From: Phytophthora colocasiae
Lineage: Eukaryota > Oomycota > Peronosporomycetes > Peronosporales > Peronosporaceae
NCBI GenBank assembly: GCA_018806915.1
Contig: JAGKQI010000020.1
Span: 248,001 to 312,000, forward strand
Direction of reading: 5' to 3'
DNA length: 64,000 bases
Under the pieces are notes generated by a model. That model had not been told where the DNA came from, searched no databases, and saw only the letters and a program-made list of their open reading frames with translations. Below are positions 24,270-64,000 of this stretch, in pieces. Position 1 is the first letter of the stretch. Each line of letters starts with the position of its first letter. The translations under genes were made by a program, and so were the position numbers.

Positions 24270-24805
24270 TCATGCAAAACATATCCAAGCTTTAAAGGAA
24301 TATAGCACTTGAGCTCTCTAGAGTAAAAAACGAAGTGTCATTTAGCAAGTTAGACCTCGAACAGCACTGCCCTACAAGTCCTCGCGTCCAGCGCCCTCCA
24401 TCCGATCGCCGTCGTCGTGCCATCGTCCTCGTTCGCAACTGGGATTGTGCTCAAGAGGCGCAGATGCTTGATGTAGACATGCTACCTACCTGGTAGGCCA
24501 CGCGTCGATGACGAAGATAAAAGGATAGATCACCCGAGCAGCAGTTTGGTCTGTGTCCCCCACCCATACGCGCAATAGCGCGATTAGACTATCCTGCTTC
24601 ATGCAGCGCCGCTGCATGAAGCTGCAGCAGCGGTGCAGGCTGCACTGCAGCACCACCGCGATATGGGTACGCCATCACGTATACATGTATGACGCAATCA
24701 GAGCGTTTACAATATATTGCAATATATTTCAATTTATTGTTGCTTTGTCACAGTACCGTGTGAGCCACACAACTATTGTTTTGGCCATTGTTGAGCTTCA
24801 GTGAA
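24270..24805. other. Intergenic with two strong palindromes
   Basis: 536 bp between CCDC25 and neurochondrin, same strand. It holds a hairpin at 24596-24622 with 13-bp perfect arms (GCTTCATGCAGCG and its complement) and a 1-base loop, followed by more CTGCAG-rich partial repeats to 24660. A perfect 18-bp AT palindrome sits at 24711-24728 (arm AATATATTG). No exon is supported. Confidence 0.6.
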
Positions 24806-46210: not shown

Positions 46211-47181
46211 TACTTGAAATTTCCGAGGTCGATTGGTAGACCAAACCGACCAAGCCTTCTACAAGTCATTATTACATAAGAAAGGTTTTATCCTCAGTCC
46301 AAGTGCTAGAAGTGAAGTTGCCGCGGCGCTGCATTTCACGCCACCAGCTACTCTCTCATCGAGATCGACGTCTGGATGAACTACACCCAAGCACGCGTTG
46401 CTCTATACACTGTTCCAGACCGTGTGGTCGACCAAGTGAGCTCTTTTGCCGGAGACCTACTATTACAGTAGTAGGCTACTACACACGCAACGAACCAGAG
46501 TCCGCTCCGTCTTGTACTACTTGTACGTAGTAGAAGCCATGCGCTAGGTGCTCTTGTATGCGAAGAGTGGTTGGAATGAGCAAGTTGTCGTGCTGCAGCT
46601 TCACAGCCATACATGTAGCGCACTCAATACGACCACTTCAACTTGGTCCGCTTTTGTCTAGCATCATCAAGAAGATCCTTGAATCTTCTTGATGACGCTA
46701 GACGGTGATTCCAACTTGGCTCGCAGCTGCATGTAATATCGATTCAAAGCACACTTCCTACAAGCCTTGGAGCCTTAGTTCCATCCACCAATTGGCCACG
46801 AAGGAAACACCCCATTCCAGCACGGAGTTCCGCCCGCCCGACCAGATTCTCTACCTGCAGTCCGCCGAAGAAGACCCATGTGTCGATCGCATCAAGTGCC
46901 GAGCCCGGTGAACGGTTTGAAGGAGCTGCGCATGCGCGTAACGGTGTGTCTCTATGGACTGAGTCCAGGACGACTCGAAGTTACCACTGGTAGGCCGTAC
47001 ACATGAAGCTGTTCAAGCGTCGAAAATGCAAAGGAGTGGTGCTCCCCCCGCAACCGAGCCGAAGTGCAGAAGGTTTGCGTGGAGATGAGAGGGTCTCCAC
47101 CCAGGTATATAGACCTGGATATTGTCAAAGCTATTAATAGATAATTTACCTCGGAAAACTTATTCGATTAGCTGAAAATTC
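46211..47181. other. Intergenic, hairpin-rich, origin unclear
   Basis: 971 bp without a supported gene. It contains a near-perfect hairpin at 46656-46703, a smaller one at 46460-46479 (CCTACTA / TAGTAGG) and TACTAC / GTAGTA at 46508-46526, so 46380-46710 may be a fragment of a repeat. The rest is unrecognised. Confidence 0.4.
46656..46703. repeat. Inverted repeat, 21-nt arms, 6-nt loop
   Basis: Left arm 46656-46676 starts GTCTAGC; loop CCTTGA; right arm 46683-46703. The arms pair at 20 of 21 positions (one A-C mismatch at 46663/46696). A transcript would form a short, stable stem-loop. It may be a terminator-like or small-RNA hairpin, or a MITE end; nothing further supports a choice. Confidence 0.7.
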
Positions 47182-53581: not shown

Positions 53582-56500
53582 TTAGAACTCGAAGATCTCC
53601 CGATAGACAATGTTCTTGGTGTGTACGTTCCCGTCTTCGTCGATCGCTTCCGGGTCCACGGCTATCTTGATCGCCTTCCGTGAAGTCACCCTCGACAACG
53701 CTACATACAGCTGTCCATGCGCAAACACAGGAGACTCGAGGTAGATCCCTACGTGGTGGATAGACTGCCCTCGGGCCTTGTTGATCGTCATCGCAAACGC
53801 TGGAACCACAGGAAACTGTTTTCGCCGAAGCTTGAACGGGAATTCCTTGTCGTCGTCTTCATTGTAGAAGATGATGCGCGGAATGAATACTCGCTTTCCC
53901 TTGAACGGCCCAGTCATAATCGTAGCTTCAATGCTTCGCTCACGCAGTGACACCACTCGGAGTCGTGTTCCGTTACACAACCCTGCGTCGCTGTTCAGGT
54001 TGCAAATCATAATGATCGGAGTTCCAACTTTCAATACAATTCGGTGTGGTGGAATTCCAGAGAAATTCAGAGAGTTCAAGAACTCTGGCTCAAACATGTT
54101 TGGATCCGCAACACCTTCCAGACTGTCAACAGAGAGGTACTCTTTTGTTTCTCCTGATAGACGTTCCAAGACCATGTCGTTAATTCTCCTCACACTCGCG
54201 TTCGTTGGTGCCAAAATGGCTCGTTCAACGAAGTAGTCATCCGGAAGATTGTCGTCACCAACACCAGGATACACTGCATCAATAAGCGCATTGACGTTGC
54301 GCTTCCGCCTGTTCTCATCCGGATCATCAACATCTCGATCTGCAGGTGTTTCCGTTGGCGGTAGAAGATTAAAGTTTGGAGGTGCTTCCATGTCTTCGTT
54401 CTCTTTGGTTTCTTCGTCATCCCATCGATCATCCCCTTGTGTGTCTGGTATAATGCACATGTCGAGGGGAAGCCAGATGTCGTTCTCACTGATATCGGAG
54501 TTCACTGGATATCGACCCTCCCCAATCTGAAGCAAGAAGTCGGAAAACTCTGCCAATTCAGCGGCGCTTGCTGGGTCCGGAGCCGTCTGAACACGCATAT
54601 TCTCCGTCAGACGCACTTGTCGTAGATGGCTCCACAGTGCGGAAGACTTGAAGCAAGCATCCAGCGTTTCTGCCCGAGTAGCATCCTTCAACACAGGCAG
54701 GATCTGTCGATGATCTCCACTGAAAACCATGACCTTTCCTCCGAATGGCTCCAACTCGTTCTTCATAATATCCCGGAACGACCGATCCACCGCTTCGAAG
54801 CACGCTCGATTCATCATAGGAGCTTCGTCCCAGATGATTAAACTTGCCTTGCGGATCAGTTCTGCCTTCTGGCTCTGCCAAGACAGACTACATGTCGAAA
54901 ACTCGGACAGTTTAAGCGGGATCCGAAATGTAGAATGTGCCGTGTGTCCCCCTGTCAACAACGTCGCTGCACTTGTACTCTGCCATGCGCAAGCTGACTT
55001 CCTCGTCACGGTCCATGTTGTTTTGTGCGTCTCTTCCCTGGATGGATCTGAAAAAGTCTTCTGACAAATCCTTCTTAAAGCGATCCCACAGAGCAGCGGC
55101 ATGGTCGGGTAGCGAGTAAACCAAAATGATTCCCAAAAGTTGGCGCACAGCGGATGGCATCTTATACGAAACTGCCTCCGCTAAGCATTCTTCCCACTCT
55201 TGATCATTCTCCAAGTACCCAGCAGCCAGTGCTGCGTCGTGAAAGGTATCATAAACCACTCCATTCACTGTGCGAATATCTTCGAATGATTGGGGTGATC
55301 GCCGATGGCACAGTAGAAGTCGAAGGTAAAACCGCTCTGGGTCTTGTGGCGAGACGTGCACCAATCTACCCTGCGAATCAACGTATCTTCTGTACGGTAC
55401 CCAATACTTCAAACGGTCATCCCACCTGTACTTCACCGGCACATCCTTGTACAACAAATCAGCGGTTCCTTCTGGGTCTTGCATGCACAGGTTGAAAAAC
55501 GCTGTCAATTTCGTTCGATCTCCTCGGCGGACCAAATTCTGAAGGTGTGGAGTCGTTGCATGATCTCGATACGTGACCAGACTCATTCCTTCCAGGTGGA
55601 TAGGAAGAGTCACAACGGCATGTGATGAAGCTTGTGTGGGAAATCCGAACAGTCGCATGCAAGCCTCTACCGGAGAAATATAGCGACCCAATAAGTACTG
55701 AAGAATCTCGTTCGCCTGAATTTCCTCTCCTTCAATAGTGATCGTCGTCATATCCGAACCCTTGTAGACATACTTGTAGATGTACTTCACCGCCTTGTTT
55801 GTAGCGCATACTTCCACGTTGATGTGACAGTCATATTTCTGCGATAGGAATGGGTTGTAAGGTACGACCCAATGGTTGCTCTTTACGTTATCCCACACCT
55901 TCCCCTTGTGCCTCAGAATTCCTTCAGGACGACGACGTCTCTTGTACGTAGGATACTTATCCTCAGCCATTCGTTTCTTCTGCGAACTGTTTGGGGAATT
56001 TCTTGGAGCATTTACCGTTCTTCATGCAGGGACAGTTGGGATTTTGTTGCCCACAGGGACCGTGCAACATATTTGAAATGACGGTTTCATAGAGCTCAGG
56101 GTGTGTCTCCTTGTCTGGTAGCTCGGCTGACGTCAACCGGTCGACATCCTCCGCCGTTGTGGGTTTGTCTTCCGGTCGCATAATCAGCAGGATATGGGCG
56201 TGTGGTAGACCACGTTTTTGGTATTCCACCACGTGAACCCGGGCTGCTACAATACCCAGCAGGCCTTAGTCGAGGTCCTTGTTGAGGGCCTTCAGCTTCT
56301 GCATGAACACACGCGCAACAATGTCCGGTCGATCAGATGCCTTCTCTCCAGGTCTAAGATTTTCCTTGATTTCAGGCCAGTTCGGGTTACACGTCATGGT
56401 GATGAACAGATTGGGTGCACCCGTCTCTCGGACTATAGCCATTGCATCCAGGAAACGCTGGTACATGTAGCGCGGGCCTCCCTTAAAGGTTGGAGGTATA

Positions 56501-58499: not shown

Positions 58500-59081
58500 T
58501 TAACACAAACCTACGTTAGTCTACACTCTTACTTTCTTCATTGTCTACTTCTTCGCGCTTCTTGTTGTGCTTGAAAAAACGTGCGGTAAGCGGTTCCAGA
58601 TGCCGCGGCAAAAAGATTTCCTTTTTCCCGAAGTAGAAGGTCTCAGTTCGCCGCTAAACAAAAGGTAAGCCATAAGCCCTCAAGTCACTGTCCCCAATGA
58701 CTCGGCAGGTCCGCGACCATGCCTCGTGGCTGTCCGCACGCGCCCTGTCGCGGACTCAGAAGCACGGGCCTGGTGTCACCCCCAAAACCAACGTGCCGGT
58801 CCCATACACGACCACTCTCCGAGGATAAGGCAGGCGGCCCGGCGAAGCCGGCTCTTCTCGCCACATGGATCTGCCTCAGCGCCTCGGCGGGGTATGAGAC
58901 TTCCCATGCTGCTGGCGGGCAAACATGGGCGCCTCAGGGTCGCGGCTCCGGAGAGCAAAGGTGCGACAGGACTAAACCTTAGTACGTGCAACGGGGTCCA
59001 GCTGCAACCTCCTTATCGCCCTCGTGTCCTGGAATTGTGCCTCCGGGGGTAGAAATCCCCGCCTCGGAACGACACGTTTTG
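58500..59081. other. Unassigned segment between Helitron gene and Gypsy LTR
   Basis: Left part (to about 58640) is probably the Helitron 5-prime flank. The remainder, 58680-59080, is GC-rich and looks like a fragment of another repeat, but I could not place it. It does not show the dense short hairpins that begin at 59082. Confidence 0.4.
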
Positions 59082-59542
59082 TGTAATGGTCTACCTAGAC
59101 CTATTAGGTGGCGTACACGTGCGCTTACGTGTATGAGGAAGCGTGCAATTAGAATAGACTTAATTTAAGTATACTTATTTAAATAAGTATAATTAAATCA
59201 AATATATAACTAATTTAAACTGCAAAATACCGTAAAATGAGAACTGTTATTGAATTTGGCATAAGCCAATTATGGACCTCCTAAAACTGTTTGTTATCTA
59301 TTTCTAAAGGGTCTGCCAACGTGTGGTTGGCAAAAACTCTGCTCAGTGATTGGTAGAAATCCGTTACTTTCTACCAATAATATGCACAAATGCACACGAA
59401 CCACCCAATAATGTGGTTCGCCCATGTATCCATTGGTGTGTACAGCACACCAAGGTCTGAGGCCCATTTCCAACCTCTAACAGTTATCCTAACTGTTAGA
59501 GTTACAAGTGGTACAACCACTTGTACGTGTAACCCCGTTACA
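59082..59542 (-). repeat. 3-prime LTR of the Gypsy element
   Basis: 461 bp. On the minus strand it begins TGTAACGGGG at 59542 and ends ATTACA at 59082, giving the TG...CA ends and a terminal TGTAA/TTACA inverted repeat. It follows a polypurine tract directly. It contains at least eight perfect hairpins, such as 59349-59378 (11-bp arms) and 59475-59501 (12-bp arms, 3-base loop). The second LTR is outside the window, so the length cannot be confirmed by comparison. Confidence 0.75.
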
Positions 59543-59553
59543 CCATCCCCCCC
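59543..59553 (-). other. Polypurine tract
   Basis: Minus strand GGGGGGGATGG directly before the TG of the LTR, the expected priming site for plus-strand DNA synthesis. It fixes the orientation of the element as minus. Confidence 0.75.
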
Positions 59554-59644
59554 GTTAAGATTCGACATATCGATCTCGACACGTCAATCAACAGAACTTG
59601 ACAAGACCGTCAAGTTCCCGAGAGAAATCCGAGTTCATCTCGCA

Positions 59645-60631
59645 ATGGACTCGCCAACGCCCACGTCTCCGTCCGCTTCTGCGGACGCGCAAGCCTCTCC
59701 TGCTGCTTCTGCAGCAGGAACAACAACCTCAGCAGTGCCCACTAGCACTGCTGGTTCCAGCGGTCCGACAGAGAAGCTCTCTGTCACCGACTACCATGCT
59801 CTCCACAAGGAGAAGAAAGCGAAGAAGACTTCTTCTTCGCTAGCAGGGGTCAAACACCCTACTGGCGTATCGCGAGCACGTTGCTGCAGCTCGCGATCGC
59901 TACTACACTTACACCACTCGTGGTAAGTGTGAACGCCTCCATGATCTGTCCATGGAAGCGGGGATCCCATGTGCCGTTTCCTTTGGCACACTCTGCCCGT
60001 GTTGCCAAACCTTGGCAACACGCCTCTCTGAAAGTGATCTCCTGGGGTACCCGATCACATCAAGGAGCTTCGTGGTCGTCTCGAGCCATGCGGAGCTCCG
60101 AGTGCTGTGGCTGATCGCAGCACTCCTCGTGCAGGGCTTACCCCTGCAAGTTATGGTGGGCTTCGTACGCCCTCACCATTTCCGGAACGTCCTCCATCAG
60201 GACGTTCCGTGGCTCCCATGTATCTCGATGGGGAGGAAATCCTCTCCAACGAATACGAAAACGAACCCCTTGAGAGTTCGTTCTCTTATGAGCCACAATC
60301 CGCTCCACAATCCAGCGGATCGCTCCACGCGCGTCGCGCAACGGCGGCGGAGGGGGTGGGAACACTCCCTCCGCATGGTCAACGCTATGACCATGACGAT
60401 CGTGCCCTGCACGATCGAGTTGCTGCGCTGGAGCAGACACAGAGCGCTGAGATAGCTGCTCTGAAGCAGGAGGTTCGTGTCCTCCGTGCTGAGGCCTGCG
60501 AGGCAGCTCAGACTGCCTCGAACCTCTCGTCCGGTCTTGGGACGAGAGTGAACCGGTTGATCGACCGTGTCGACGGTCTCGAGAAGGCCTTCCAGACCTC
60601 TCGCACTCCTCAGTCGGACTACCAACCCTAG
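59645..60631 (+). pseudogene. Antisense coding region with C-terminal coiled coil, frameshifted
   Basis: Plus strand, opposite to pol, starting 103 bases inside the LTR. Three frames join into about 330 residues: (1) ATG at 59645, a Ser/Thr/Ala-rich start, then a basic patch KEKKAKK; (2) a globular-looking part with REHVAAARDRYY, a CPCC motif and ESDLLGYP, reached by a frameshift near 59860; (3) HIKELRGRLEPCGAP followed by a Pro/Ser-rich linker and a coiled coil (LHDRVAALEQTQSAEIAALK, then RVNRLIDRVDGLEKAF), stop at 60629-60631, reached by a frameshift near 60050. It overlaps the chromodomain and the linker after integrase on the other strand by about 490 bp. The coherent composition argues for a real antisense gene, now decayed or with consensus errors. 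I recognise no family. Confidence 0.55.
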
Positions 60632-63600
60632 GTAGTCCGTGCTGCACGTACGGCTTCAACCGCCCGACGTAGAAGGTCGGGTGGAGCCTCATGCTGGACG
60701 GTATGTCCAGCCGGTACGCGTTATCATGCCGTTCAAGTACTTTGAACGGCCCAATGAATCTAGGAGCAAGCTTGCTTGCTCCAAAGTCAGACACTGCATG
60801 TCTAGGTAGGTTTTGTGTAGCTAACAAAACTAATGAACCCTTTTCGAATTCATTTGTGTTGCCTCTACCAACAGTATCAGCGTTCAGCTTCTGTCGATCG
60901 ACAGAAGCTGCGATAGCATCCTGGATAAACCGTATGATGGCTTGTCTTCGCTGGACAAAGTCTAGCGCACCCGAGCTGAATCCTTTCAGCTTGTCGCCCT
61001 TGTCAGCAGCAGGCCCTGCCTGCTCGCTATCATCTCTCATGTCTGTGCCCGGCACAGACATCGCGCGCTCGTTCCTGCTCGAACGAGACGTCGCACGCGT
61101 CACAGCAGCTGATAGTGTGCTGCTATCAGTTGCATTCTGCGGTTGTTCGGACGCAACCGTAGATCCTCCCCCACTTAAGGAGGAAGCTACACCGCCGAGC
61201 ATGCTCGGCAATCGTGGATGCCTCATGGTGTTCACGTAGAACGGTGTATGCCCTGTCGAGGCATGCACCGAGTTGTTGATGGCAAACTCTGCCATCGGCA
61301 AGCACTCGCTCCAATGCGGGAACGAGTGAGCGTAGCTCTTCAACGTGTCACCCAGTACACGGTTGACACGTTCGGTCTGTCCGTCCGTCTGCGGATGATC
61401 CGCAGTCGACATTGATAACTGTGAGCCAAGAAGTGTAAACTCTTCTTGCCAGAACCGCGCTGTGAAGCGTGGATCACGGTCCGACACAATGTCGAGCGGC
61501 ATGCCATGGTGTTTGAACACCATGTCAACAAACAGTCGCGCAGTCTGCGCGGCTGTAACAGTAGTTGACGGCAGCAAGATGAACCATCTTGCTGAATCGG
61601 TCCACAAAGACAACGATGCCCGTCCTCCGCTTGCTGTCAGGCGGAAGACCGAAGACAAAGTCCATGGACATGGACTGCCAACACTCCGACGGAGTCGGTA
61701 GTGATTGAAGAGGAGCCTGCGAGAACTGCGCAGGCTTCACGCGTTGACAAACCACGCAAGCACGTACGTACTTGCGCACCCACTTGTACTGGTGGTGCCA
61801 GTAGAAGTCACGCGGGAGAAGAGTGTATGTCTTCTCACGACCCGGGTGCCATGCCGTGGGGGCATCGTGATACTCGAACATGATCCTCAACCGGAGGTCA
61901 TGATCATTCGGAACGACAATGCGATCCGCATTGTCGTCTACTGCACTGTACAACAGTAGGCCTTCGTGTACACGATAGCGGTGTACACGAGCTCGAAGAT
62001 GAGGGGTTAGCTTCCGACGTGCCACGTCGGAAGGTGCTGCGAGGAACTCCAGCAGCCCCTTCGCGTCTGCATCCCTTGCATACGCGTTCTTCACGTCGTC
62101 AATCAACGTTGACGACGGCACACTTGTCCTCACGACGCCAACAGCGTTGGCGTCGACCGTCTCTGCATAGTCAGGTCGACGCGATAACGCGTCGGCCACT
62201 ACATTGAGTCTTCCGGGTTTGTACTCCACCCGGAAGTTGTACTCCGCGAAGAAGGACAACCATCTCGCCATACGTTGCGAGATGTGCGGCGACTTAATCG
62301 CCGTACGCAATGATGCGTGGTCTGTATAGACCACGAACGGTCTACTCCCAAGTAGATACACTCGGAACTCTGCGAGTGCATACTTCATGGCAAGGAGCTC
62401 CTTGTCATGTACGGGATAATTACGCTCAGCTGGCTTCAGCTGACGCGATTGATAGTAGACTACACGATCACGCCCTTCGTGATCGTGTTGCATCAATGCA
62501 CATCCGATTGCAAAGTCGGATGCATCGCACACTACGTGGAATGGACGATCTTGGTCCGCCACGGCCAAGATCGGCGCTTCAGTCAAGCCCTGCTTGACTG
62601 CACCGAATGCCTCCTCGCACTCGGTCGTCCAAATCCACTCAGCTTCTTTCTTAAGAAGCTGTGACAACGGGCGAATCTTGCCCGCATAGTTCTCCACGTA
62701 CTTGCACAAGTACGTGGCAAGCCCAAGGAACTGCCTCAGTTCCTTCACATTGGATGGCGTGGGCCATTCATTGATCACTCTGACCTTCTCTGGGTCAGGG
62801 CGCACGCCGTCTTTCCCCACGAGACACCCCAGCACGGGATCTCGCTCGCCCCGAAGATACACTTCTTCAGGTTCGCATAGAGCTTATGTTTCCTCATAAG
62901 CTCTAGCAGCTTCCGGAGATGCACCTTGTGCATCTCAATGTCCGTCTTCCCGTACACAGCCCGGCTGTGGACGAACACGTCGTCGAAGTAACTCGGTGCG
63001 AAGTCGCGCACCGAGCGCAATAGATGCGTCACGCATCTATTGAACGTTGCAGGGGCATTCTTAAGCCCCTGTGGCATTACGAGCCACTCCCAAAGCATAC
63101 CGCTTGGAGTGCTTACCGCTGTGAGAGGGATGTCCCTCTCACGCATGAGGATCTGATAGAATCCATCACGCAGATCTAGAGCACTGAAGATAGTGCTCAA
63201 GGCCATCGAATCGATGATAACATCTTTTCGCGGTATCGGCGTCTGCGCCGGTATCGTCGCATCGTTCAACTTGTTGTACGCATGAACGATGCGCCAGCCG
63301 CCCTGTGGTTTCTTAACACAGAACGTTGGGGCACTGTGCGGGGACTTTGATTCCCGCACTTGACCTGCGACGACTTTCAAAGAAGTCGTCGATCGCTTGA
63401 ACTTGTTCACGCGGCAGTGGCCACTGCCGTGTAACACAGTACTTCGTGCCCGGCACGAGATCAATCTCGTGCTGTACGCCCTTGTCCTTCGGAAGCTCCG
63501 AAGGAATCTCGTCCGGGAGTACATCCTTGTACTCCCGCAGAATCTCGTAATAGGGACTCGACTTCAACGAGTCCCAACTCTGCTCCTCGAAGCGTTGCTT

Positions 63601-63993
63601 CTTGGTCTTCGCACTGAGGGGGTCATCGCCCTCAGTGATGCCATCGACGACGAGCTGCTTCAGCTCCTCGGCTTCGCGATCCACTCTCTCGATATCCGAG
63701 AGAATGCAAATTTATTCGATGCGTCCATCGTACAAGTTCCGCGCGAAGCACTTCCAACTCATCGTTGGAAGTGCGGTCAACGCCGACGCACACGTCGGCG
63801 GATTCTCCAACCGCATCCTCTGGTACTGTAACCCAGTACCAGTACGTGTCAAGACGTTCAACGTCTCGACACTCGGTGTCTGCCCTGCAGATACACCCTC
63901 CTCAGTCACGGACTGAGACTCACACAGCTCACTGAGCTGGTGCCGCGCGCTCTGATACTGTAACGCAGTATCAGTTCGTGTCAAGACGTTCAA
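60138..63993 (-). pseudogene. Gypsy pol: RT, RNase H, integrase and chromodomain, frameshifted
   Basis: Minus strand, partial at the window edge. Reverse transcriptase shows WRIVHAYNKLNDATIP, FSALDLRDGFYQI, LVMPQGLKNAPATFNR and the catalytic YFDD box; RNase H shows FHVVCDASDFAIGCAL and HDKELLAM; integrase shows the HHCC zinc region (ending CVVCQRVKP), and the D-D-E triad in SMDFVFGLP, IVSDRDPRF and TDGQTERVNR. A chromodomain (RWIVERIVAHKR, RFRIRWRGF, TWEPRNVL) ends the protein at 60138, after a disordered linker of about 120 residues. Lesions: an in-frame TAA near 63712, and frameshifts near 63365, 62845 and 61570. All catalytic residues remain, so the element is recently dead or mis-sequenced. 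Confidence 0.9.
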
Positions 63994-64000
63994 CGCCTTG
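63824..64000. repeat. Imperfect 132-bp tandem repeat in pol
   Basis: TACTGTAACCCAGTACCAG at 63824 recurs as TACTGTAACGCAGTATCAG at 63956, each followed by TCGTGTCAAGACGTTCAACG or its variant. The period is 132 bp (44 codons), so the reading frame is kept; on the minus strand both copies encode NVLTRT(G/D)T(G/A)LQYQ. The second copy runs into the window edge. Confidence 0.7.

Follow-up and report, generated by a model that had tools for sequence, protein, structure and literature searches.

A Gypsy retrotransposon family of Phytophthora tiled with short perfect hairpins, some of which are inverted as whole units

How does a protein-coding retrotransposon come to carry a short perfect hairpin every few dozen bases from end to end, and what keeps such hairpins in place? 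The question is raised by a chromovirus-like Ty3/Gypsy long terminal repeat (LTR) retrotransposon of Phytophthora colocasiae at the end of the window, by which we mean the whole stretch of 64,000 nucleotides that was analysed (contig label G000:C94:248001-312000, in a searched genome of 92.5 Mb in 105 contigs). The element spans 59081-67016 (7936 bp) with pol on the minus strand; its window part, 59081-64000, is the 3' half in sense, and its end past the window was read from the adjoining 4.6 kb. Its hairpins are real and family-wide; most of their stems are exact reverse complements, some hairpins are inverted as whole units, and variants shared among copies avoid the arms. A literature search, with preprints and most subscription papers outside its scope, found no description of a hairpin-tiled LTR retrotransposon.

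Counting as a hairpin every maximal perfect inverted repeat with arms of at least 7 bp and a loop of 0-10 bases, we found 91 in 59082-64000, where a first-pass annotation had counted more than 70 by eye, and 139 over the full element; all nine examples that it had quoted were present with the arm lengths it gave. Arms of 7, 8, 9, 10, 11, 12 and 13 bp occur in 40, 27, 38, 15, 14, 4 and 1 of the 139 hairpins, the longest perfect palindrome of the window part being 60885-60910 (13-bp arms, no loop). The median spacing from centre to centre is 42 bp, and arms make up 30% of the bases of the element. When loops of up to 60 bases were allowed, 109 of 114 hairpins with arms of at least 8 bp had a loop of 0-16 bases. 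The excess beyond chance, for which about three hairpins had been expected, stood up to shuffling: dinucleotide shuffles of 59082-64000 (n = 20) gave a mean of 3.45 and a maximum of 7, and codon-preserving shuffles of three pol pieces (50 per piece) gave 1.26, 1.22 and 0.84 against 25, 20 and 14 observed. The refuting outcome named in the first-pass annotation, a similar density in codon-preserving shuffles of pol, thus did not occur.

The pattern is bounded by the element. It begins at the LTR edge and runs through pol, as had been described, and the element continues beyond the window to 67016: of its hairpins, the first one (start 59114) lies in one LTR and the last one (start 66977) in the other, and outside the element the closest such repeats start at 54284 and 67528. 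The LTR at 59081-59542 holds hairpins starting at 59114, 59170, 59314, 59349, 59397, 59433, 59475, 59503 and 59527, the last of which ends at 59543, one base beyond the aligned LTR. Divided into 4-kb bins, the window has 74 hairpins in its last bin and 0-17 in the other 15, the bin with 17 being the one that holds the first kilobase of the element. The rest of the window (1-59080) contains 47 such repeats, about 40 being predicted by the formula of the first-pass annotation, which had described the flanking Helitron and host genes as free of the pattern. Two isolated hairpins with 13-bp arms lie outside the element, at 24596-24622 and 46664-46695.

All 30 sibling loci that were fetched are rich in hairpins (56-83 per 4.3 kb), so the possibility raised earlier, that siblings lack them and the window copy is an assembly artefact, did not materialise. 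The hairpins 62133-62155 and 59475-59501, each searched singly, have 202 and 485 matches across the genome. At C9:2213870-2241253, eight LTR hairpin matches lie about 3.91 kb apart, suggesting a tandem array of LTR-bearing units. Three Gypsy families were compared, namely that of the window element (A), a second one with 18 copies (B, loci L031-L048) and a third one with 12 copies (C), which are mutually 50-57% identical in protein. In the matched part of pol, the density per kb is 16.9-17.6 in A (four copies), 7.6-10.2 in B and 1.8-2.7 in C, and letter shuffles of the match parts (2.0-2.3 kb each) have averages of 0.2-2.4 hairpins per part; B thus has about half the density of A, and C is near background. 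Only 7 of 97 hairpin centres of A (arms of at least 6 bp) are common to A and B, about one being expected by a rough estimate, which means that most hairpins differ in place between the families.

Several hairpins of family A occur in both orientations. At 62133-62155 (10-bp arms, 3-base loop) the sense loops GCT and GCA are found in the genome together with their reverse complements AGC and TGC. Among the first 100 of the 202 matches, obtained with a search pattern that requires intact arms and tallied by eye, the loop is GCT in 50, GCA in 29, AGC in 12, TGC in 6, GTT in 2 and GTA in 1; exact inversions account for 18 of these 100, three loops are one base off a common allele, and no other loop is present among them. 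AGC and GCT disagree at every one of their three positions, and none of the 100 matches listed has a loop intermediate between the two. Five AGC-loop copies lie within 67 kb at G000:C52:6282-73139, a cluster that may reflect spread of the allele by duplication in place or by several insertions from a single lineage.

Among siblings filtered to a flank identity of at least 93% (2273 instances of A hairpins), three A hairpins have loops of more than one base that are exactly inverted between intact arms: TTAT to ATAA in L020 (hairpin 62177-62194, sense loop TTAT), GCT to AGC in L020 and L029 together with GCA to TGC in L022, and AA to TT in L022 and L030. They represent 3 of 12 distinct multi-base loop variants in A, a count that leaves out TGC, which inverts the second common allele GCA. 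The labels of L016 and L024 as loop-inverted look like misalignments and were not counted. A change of a single-base loop to its complement, seen in 2 of the 5 distinct A variants and in the one B variant, is not informative. Complement-type transversions, the mark of inversion, are enriched in the shared loop variants of A and B, with 12 of 50 against 15 of 201 outside (P 0.002; A 8/31 versus 7/106, P 0.006; B 4/19 versus 8/95, P 0.11). A further inversion was found at the LTR hairpin 59475-59501 (12-bp arms, loop TCC), where 1 of 100 listed of the 485 matches has GGA (G000:C22:860376). The partner LTR of apparently the same element (C22:867668) keeps TCC, with a pol match between the two; the inversion then belongs to the most recent replication cycle or to the time since insertion.

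Minute inversions, in which a loop is flipped between inverted-repeat arms that do not change, occur at isolated sites. The loops of our element likewise flip between intact arms; here, however, it is four hairpins of one element family that display multi-base inversions. Two reports (PMC9653739, PMC3123225) deal with minute inversions tied to hairpins, in plastid and in avian DNA.

The variation among siblings shows which parts of a hairpin are kept. In A, sites with a variant shared by at least two copies make up 17 of 1411 arm sites (1.2%), 106 of 2525 sites outside (4.2%) and 29 of 365 loop sites (7.9%), and B shows the same order (arms 8/810, outside 92/4131, loops 18/304). The depletion of shared variants in arms corresponds to an odds ratio of 0.28 (P 5e-8) in A and reaches P 0.02 in B. 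In the hairpin-poor family C (arms 5/230, outside 127/4962, loops 5/59) the loops are high (P 0.02) and the arms are not low. Singletons in A follow a weaker trend (arms 8.2 and 9.1%, outside 11.2%, loops 15.9%; P 0.01 each against outside), and the singleton contrast in B has no significance. Where arm variants are shared, a larger fraction of them than of singletons falls at the ends of stems, both in A (11/18 versus 29/122, P 0.004) and in B (6/8 versus 17/68, P 0.008). Taken together, sibling variation speaks for selection on pairing or a lower mutation rate of paired bases, and against copying alone.

At the level of the protein, the hairpins disregard codon phase. Judged by 22 outgroup proteins, sites at which synonymous codons could write an arm number 65.4, 6.7 and 30.3 per 1000 amino acids in phases 0, 1 and 2, and the realised A arms of at least 9 bp number 15, 10 and 16, where 26.2, 2.7 and 12.1 are expected (P 2e-6). 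The match of arm codons to the outgroups is 0.55, 0.52 and 0.59 by phase (27 hairpins), compared with 0.61 for other codons. Potential sites for arms of at least 9 bp are also in surplus over shuffles of the same protein (8 each) in A (188 versus 134.5, SD 5.6); the values are 195 versus 154.1 (SD 14.1) in B and 202 versus 182 (SD 11) in C. Given phase-blind arms, a lower outgroup match and surplus potential sites, the A protein seems to have changed in part so as to accommodate the hairpins.

Scans of IMG/VR and GTDB contigs confirmed no DNA of relatives, and the cross-species tests therefore rest on proteins. For each of the best 120 of 2156 homolog hits, which are mutually related so that their counts are not independent, we compared the perfect arms writable by synonymous codons with those of the locally shuffled same protein (24 shuffles each). 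The ratio for potential arms of at least 11 bp was 1.83 in 63 homologs of at least 80% identity and 1.86 in 34 homologs of 70-79%, falling to 1.43 in 4 homologs of 62-69%; relatives at 56-61% (19 homologs) have a much weaker imprint, with a ratio of 1.24. Accordingly ordered by identity, z was at least 2 in 57/63, 30/34, 2/4 and 4/19 homologs, that is, in 87 of 97 at 70% or more. The named close homologs come from P. cactorum, P. fragariae, P. idaei, P. rubi, P. cinnamomi, P. palmivora, P. megakarya and others.

The first-pass annotation had suggested testing whether arms co-vary, and run on proteins across species this test yielded an excess of changes that keep the arms pairable; compensated pairs proved rare among the siblings. 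For 53 A hairpins (arms of at least 8 bp) and homologs of at least 78% identity, variants with changed arm codons were still pairable in 149 of 422 cases versus 87 expected under random substitution; 250 unrealised potential sites, serving as a control, gave 442 of 1526 versus 402. Among the variants changed in both arms, 44 of 173 were pairable (20.8 expected; control 112 of 651 versus 98.1). Homologs of 68-78% retained a small excess (32/109 versus 25.0; control 105/388 versus 97.1), and below 68% there was none (25/269 versus 22.7). To judge from these protein comparisons, the close Phytophthora clade appears to have kept pairing as the protein changed.

What process could write such hairpins and keep them? 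We give about even odds (a probability of roughly 0.5) to the reading that template switching writes and flips them, probably in the element's own replication, and that they persist through selection on pairing or through protection of paired bases. In a short template switch, the complementary or nascent strand would serve as the template for one arm, alone or together with the loop, and a hairpin would thereby be written and perfected. The switching would most likely occur in the element's own reverse transcription, because the rest of the window is near background. Variants that break a stem would then be passed on less, the keeper being either selection on the folded genome, as RNA or single-stranded cDNA, or a lower mutation rate of paired bases. 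As for function, one may speculate about a genome-wide folded state that aids packaging or shields the RNA from silencing.

A template-switch cause, already put forward in the first-pass annotation, agrees with the exact inversions, the blindness to codon phase and the lack of a G-U preference in A; what it leaves unexplained on its own is the conservation of the arms. A test for the direction of copying gave mixed results: compared with the other families at the nucleotide level, sense 5' arms are better conserved than 3' arms (+6.7 points, 104 A and B hairpins, P 0.001), as expected if the plus-strand copies the 5' arm. In passages of Monttinen and Loytynoja (2022, PMC8794818), template switching is stated to be able to create the perfect stem of an RNA gene in one event and to repair stems, so that reverse-complement copying makes or mends perfect stems there as it would here. 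These passages concern RNA genes and DNA replication, whereas in our case the hairpins extend over almost all of a coding retrotransposon.

A number of results weigh against this reading. Frequent copying from arm to arm should leave many complementary pairs, and among siblings the only clear compensated pair that is shared is a change from C-G to T-A in A, for which intermediates are present; B has none. Pair instances with both sides changed in the filtered siblings are complementary in 2 cases and non-complementary in 10. Template switching alone thus fails to explain arm conservation. From these compensated-pair counts we excluded copies with ends on unrelated flank at about 50% divergence (L024, L026, L039, L040, L041 and L046); six copies chosen as divergent by protein score turned out to be decayed, with about 98% nucleotide identity, and added no covariation. 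Multi-base loop inversions make up 0 of 3 distinct variants in B and 0 of 1 in C, and the inversion in a single LTR fits an event after insertion equally well. The arm asymmetry is not repeated in amino acids: 5' and 3' arms score 0.606 and 0.594 against 22 outgroup proteins (P 0.76) and, with the opposite sign, 0.794 and 0.821 against 85 close homologs (P 0.14). Not all stems are perfect either, as 99 perfect arms of at least 8 bp in A stand beside 33 one-mismatch stems of at least 9 columns, a figure from a wider search than the stricter one for internal mismatches, which gave 4 in A. In B, by the wider search, 23 perfect stems stand beside 11 with one mismatch (G-T 6, A-C 1, other 4), and shared arm variants favour G-T over A-C by 14:7 compared with 84:102 outside (P 0.07), both of which hint at selection on RNA.

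The last two results lead to a serious rival, which we nevertheless regard as less likely, namely that pure selection for a genome-wide folded RNA has built the hairpins by point mutation and compensation, in aid of packaging, stability or escape from small RNAs, with the loop inversions as a by-product. The depletion of shared variants in arms, with those present biased to stem ends, fits it, as does the pairability retained across species. Predicted folding is also stronger than in shuffles (in kcal/mol per 150 nt, -61.0 versus -44.8 in A, -64.1 versus -49.9 in B and -56.9 versus -49.9 in C), and compensated pairs are few in recent copies. Against it, the one-mismatch stems of A comprise 10 G-T, 13 A-C and 10 other cases, without a preference for G-T over A-C, and pairing in A looks strand-symmetric. 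With composition controlled, no excess of predicted folding of the sense over the antisense strand was found in A, B or C, a weak test, as the hairpin-poor C behaves alike; an excess in B in a first comparison vanished under this control. Moreover, the hairpins are not concentrated in the phases where synonymous change suffices, and many loops are very short, 24 of the 75 hairpins of the coding part having 0-2 bases there. Selection for a folded RNA had been offered as a cause in the first-pass annotation as well, and arms depleted of shared variants without frequent compensation, together with arm covariation across species, argue in favour of it or at least of protection of paired bases. Single-stranded RNA phages, whose genomes are rich in hairpins, and RNA viruses with genome-scale ordered structure have local hairpins all along their coding sequence, with co-varying arms and tolerated G-U pairs. 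Our element resembles them in its local hairpins across coding sequence and in the co-variation of arms, and differs in that the stems of A show no preference for G-T over A-C.

Quite improbable, in our estimate, is a purely mutational ratchet, in which the element's polymerase perfects imperfect inverted repeats, paired bases mutate less and the hairpins have no function. It would account for the exact inversions, the indifference to codon phase, the predominance of perfect stems and the excess of copy-shared variants in loops with their deficit in arms. However, the frequent conversion that it supposes predicts many compensated sibling pairs, where one clear shared case was found, and unchecked conversion could lengthen arms that in fact stop at 12 bp in the non-coding LTR and at 13 bp in the whole element.

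That the hairpins feed or mimic precursors of small RNAs, as microRNA-like substrates of Dicer, is very improbable. Known Dicer substrates are longer than the perfect arms of 7-13 bp found here, and since no perfect arm exceeds 13 bp, the feeding of Dicer considered in the first-pass annotation looks unlikely. A point on its side is that small RNAs homologous to transposable elements are reported in Phytophthora infestans (PMC3522703). Chance, composition or an artefact of a single copy or of assembly can be dismissed in view of the dinucleotide and codon-preserving shuffles, the 30 hairpin-rich siblings and the hundreds of genome-wide places matched by each of two hairpins.

Coming back to an element whose hairpins we would attribute to template switching and to the upkeep of pairing, its parts support placing it, in an oomycete genome, among the chromovirus-like Ty3/Gypsy LTR retrotransposons. 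Self-BLAST aligned the sense 3' LTR with its partner at 66554-67016, outside the window, over 463 bp at 99.35% identity. On the minus strand, Pfam predicts a reverse transcriptase (RT) domain (RVT_1, PF00078, 62826-63317, E 4.2e-26), an RNase H domain (RT_RNaseH, PF17917, 62239-62556, E 3.4e-35) and, for the integrase, a zinc-binding H2C2 domain (Integrase_H2C2, PF17921, 61732-61905, E 5.3e-18), a Tf2-1-like SH3 domain (PF24626, 60645-60836, E 1.8e-15, residues 275-338) and, at the C-terminus, a chromodomain (Chromo, PF00385, 60159-60314, E 7.1e-12, residues 449-500 of the open reading frame (ORF) 60138-61658), which bears out the Gypsy identity proposed earlier. The near-identical LTRs, the order RT, RNase H, integrase, the SH3 domain and the chromodomain are those of Tf2-like chromoviruses of the Ty3/Gypsy group; unlike these, the element is tiled with its 139 hairpins over the whole length. 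Among named proteins, its best relatives belong to Phytophthora, with identities of up to 86-87%.

Beyond the window, 65522-66568 holds a gag-like frame in which a CCHC knuckle was recognised by eye. In the window copy, pol is broken into several frames, and siblings with longer uninterrupted frames exist. Internal direct repeats (63818-64079, 130 bp, 87%, and further pairs beyond the window, 91-92%) are located upstream of RT in sense, where the frames of the window copy are broken. In the flank, an ORF for a PIF1-like helicase at 53582-55102 on the minus strand (PF05970, E 1.3e-54) fits a flanking Helitron; hairpins are sparse there.

How perfect stems originate and are kept up is an old puzzle in RNA evolution. 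Here it can be studied in one element with about 140 stems, one hairpin of which is present at about 200 places in the genome, and with other Gypsy families of the same genome at half and near-background density. Once DNA of sister species is aligned, sequence alone could tell template switching from selection on pairing and from the protection of paired bases. We give a little less than an even chance to the reading that this oomycete Gypsy lineage bears, along its whole length, a further code in the form of about 140 short perfect hairpins, which template switches in its own replication cycle make and flip and which selection has kept, at a cost to its amino-acid sequence, while several Phytophthora species diverged. 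Should the hairpins be functional, an LTR retrotransposon would have a fold on the scale of its genome, with a bearing on packaging and on how silencing is escaped.

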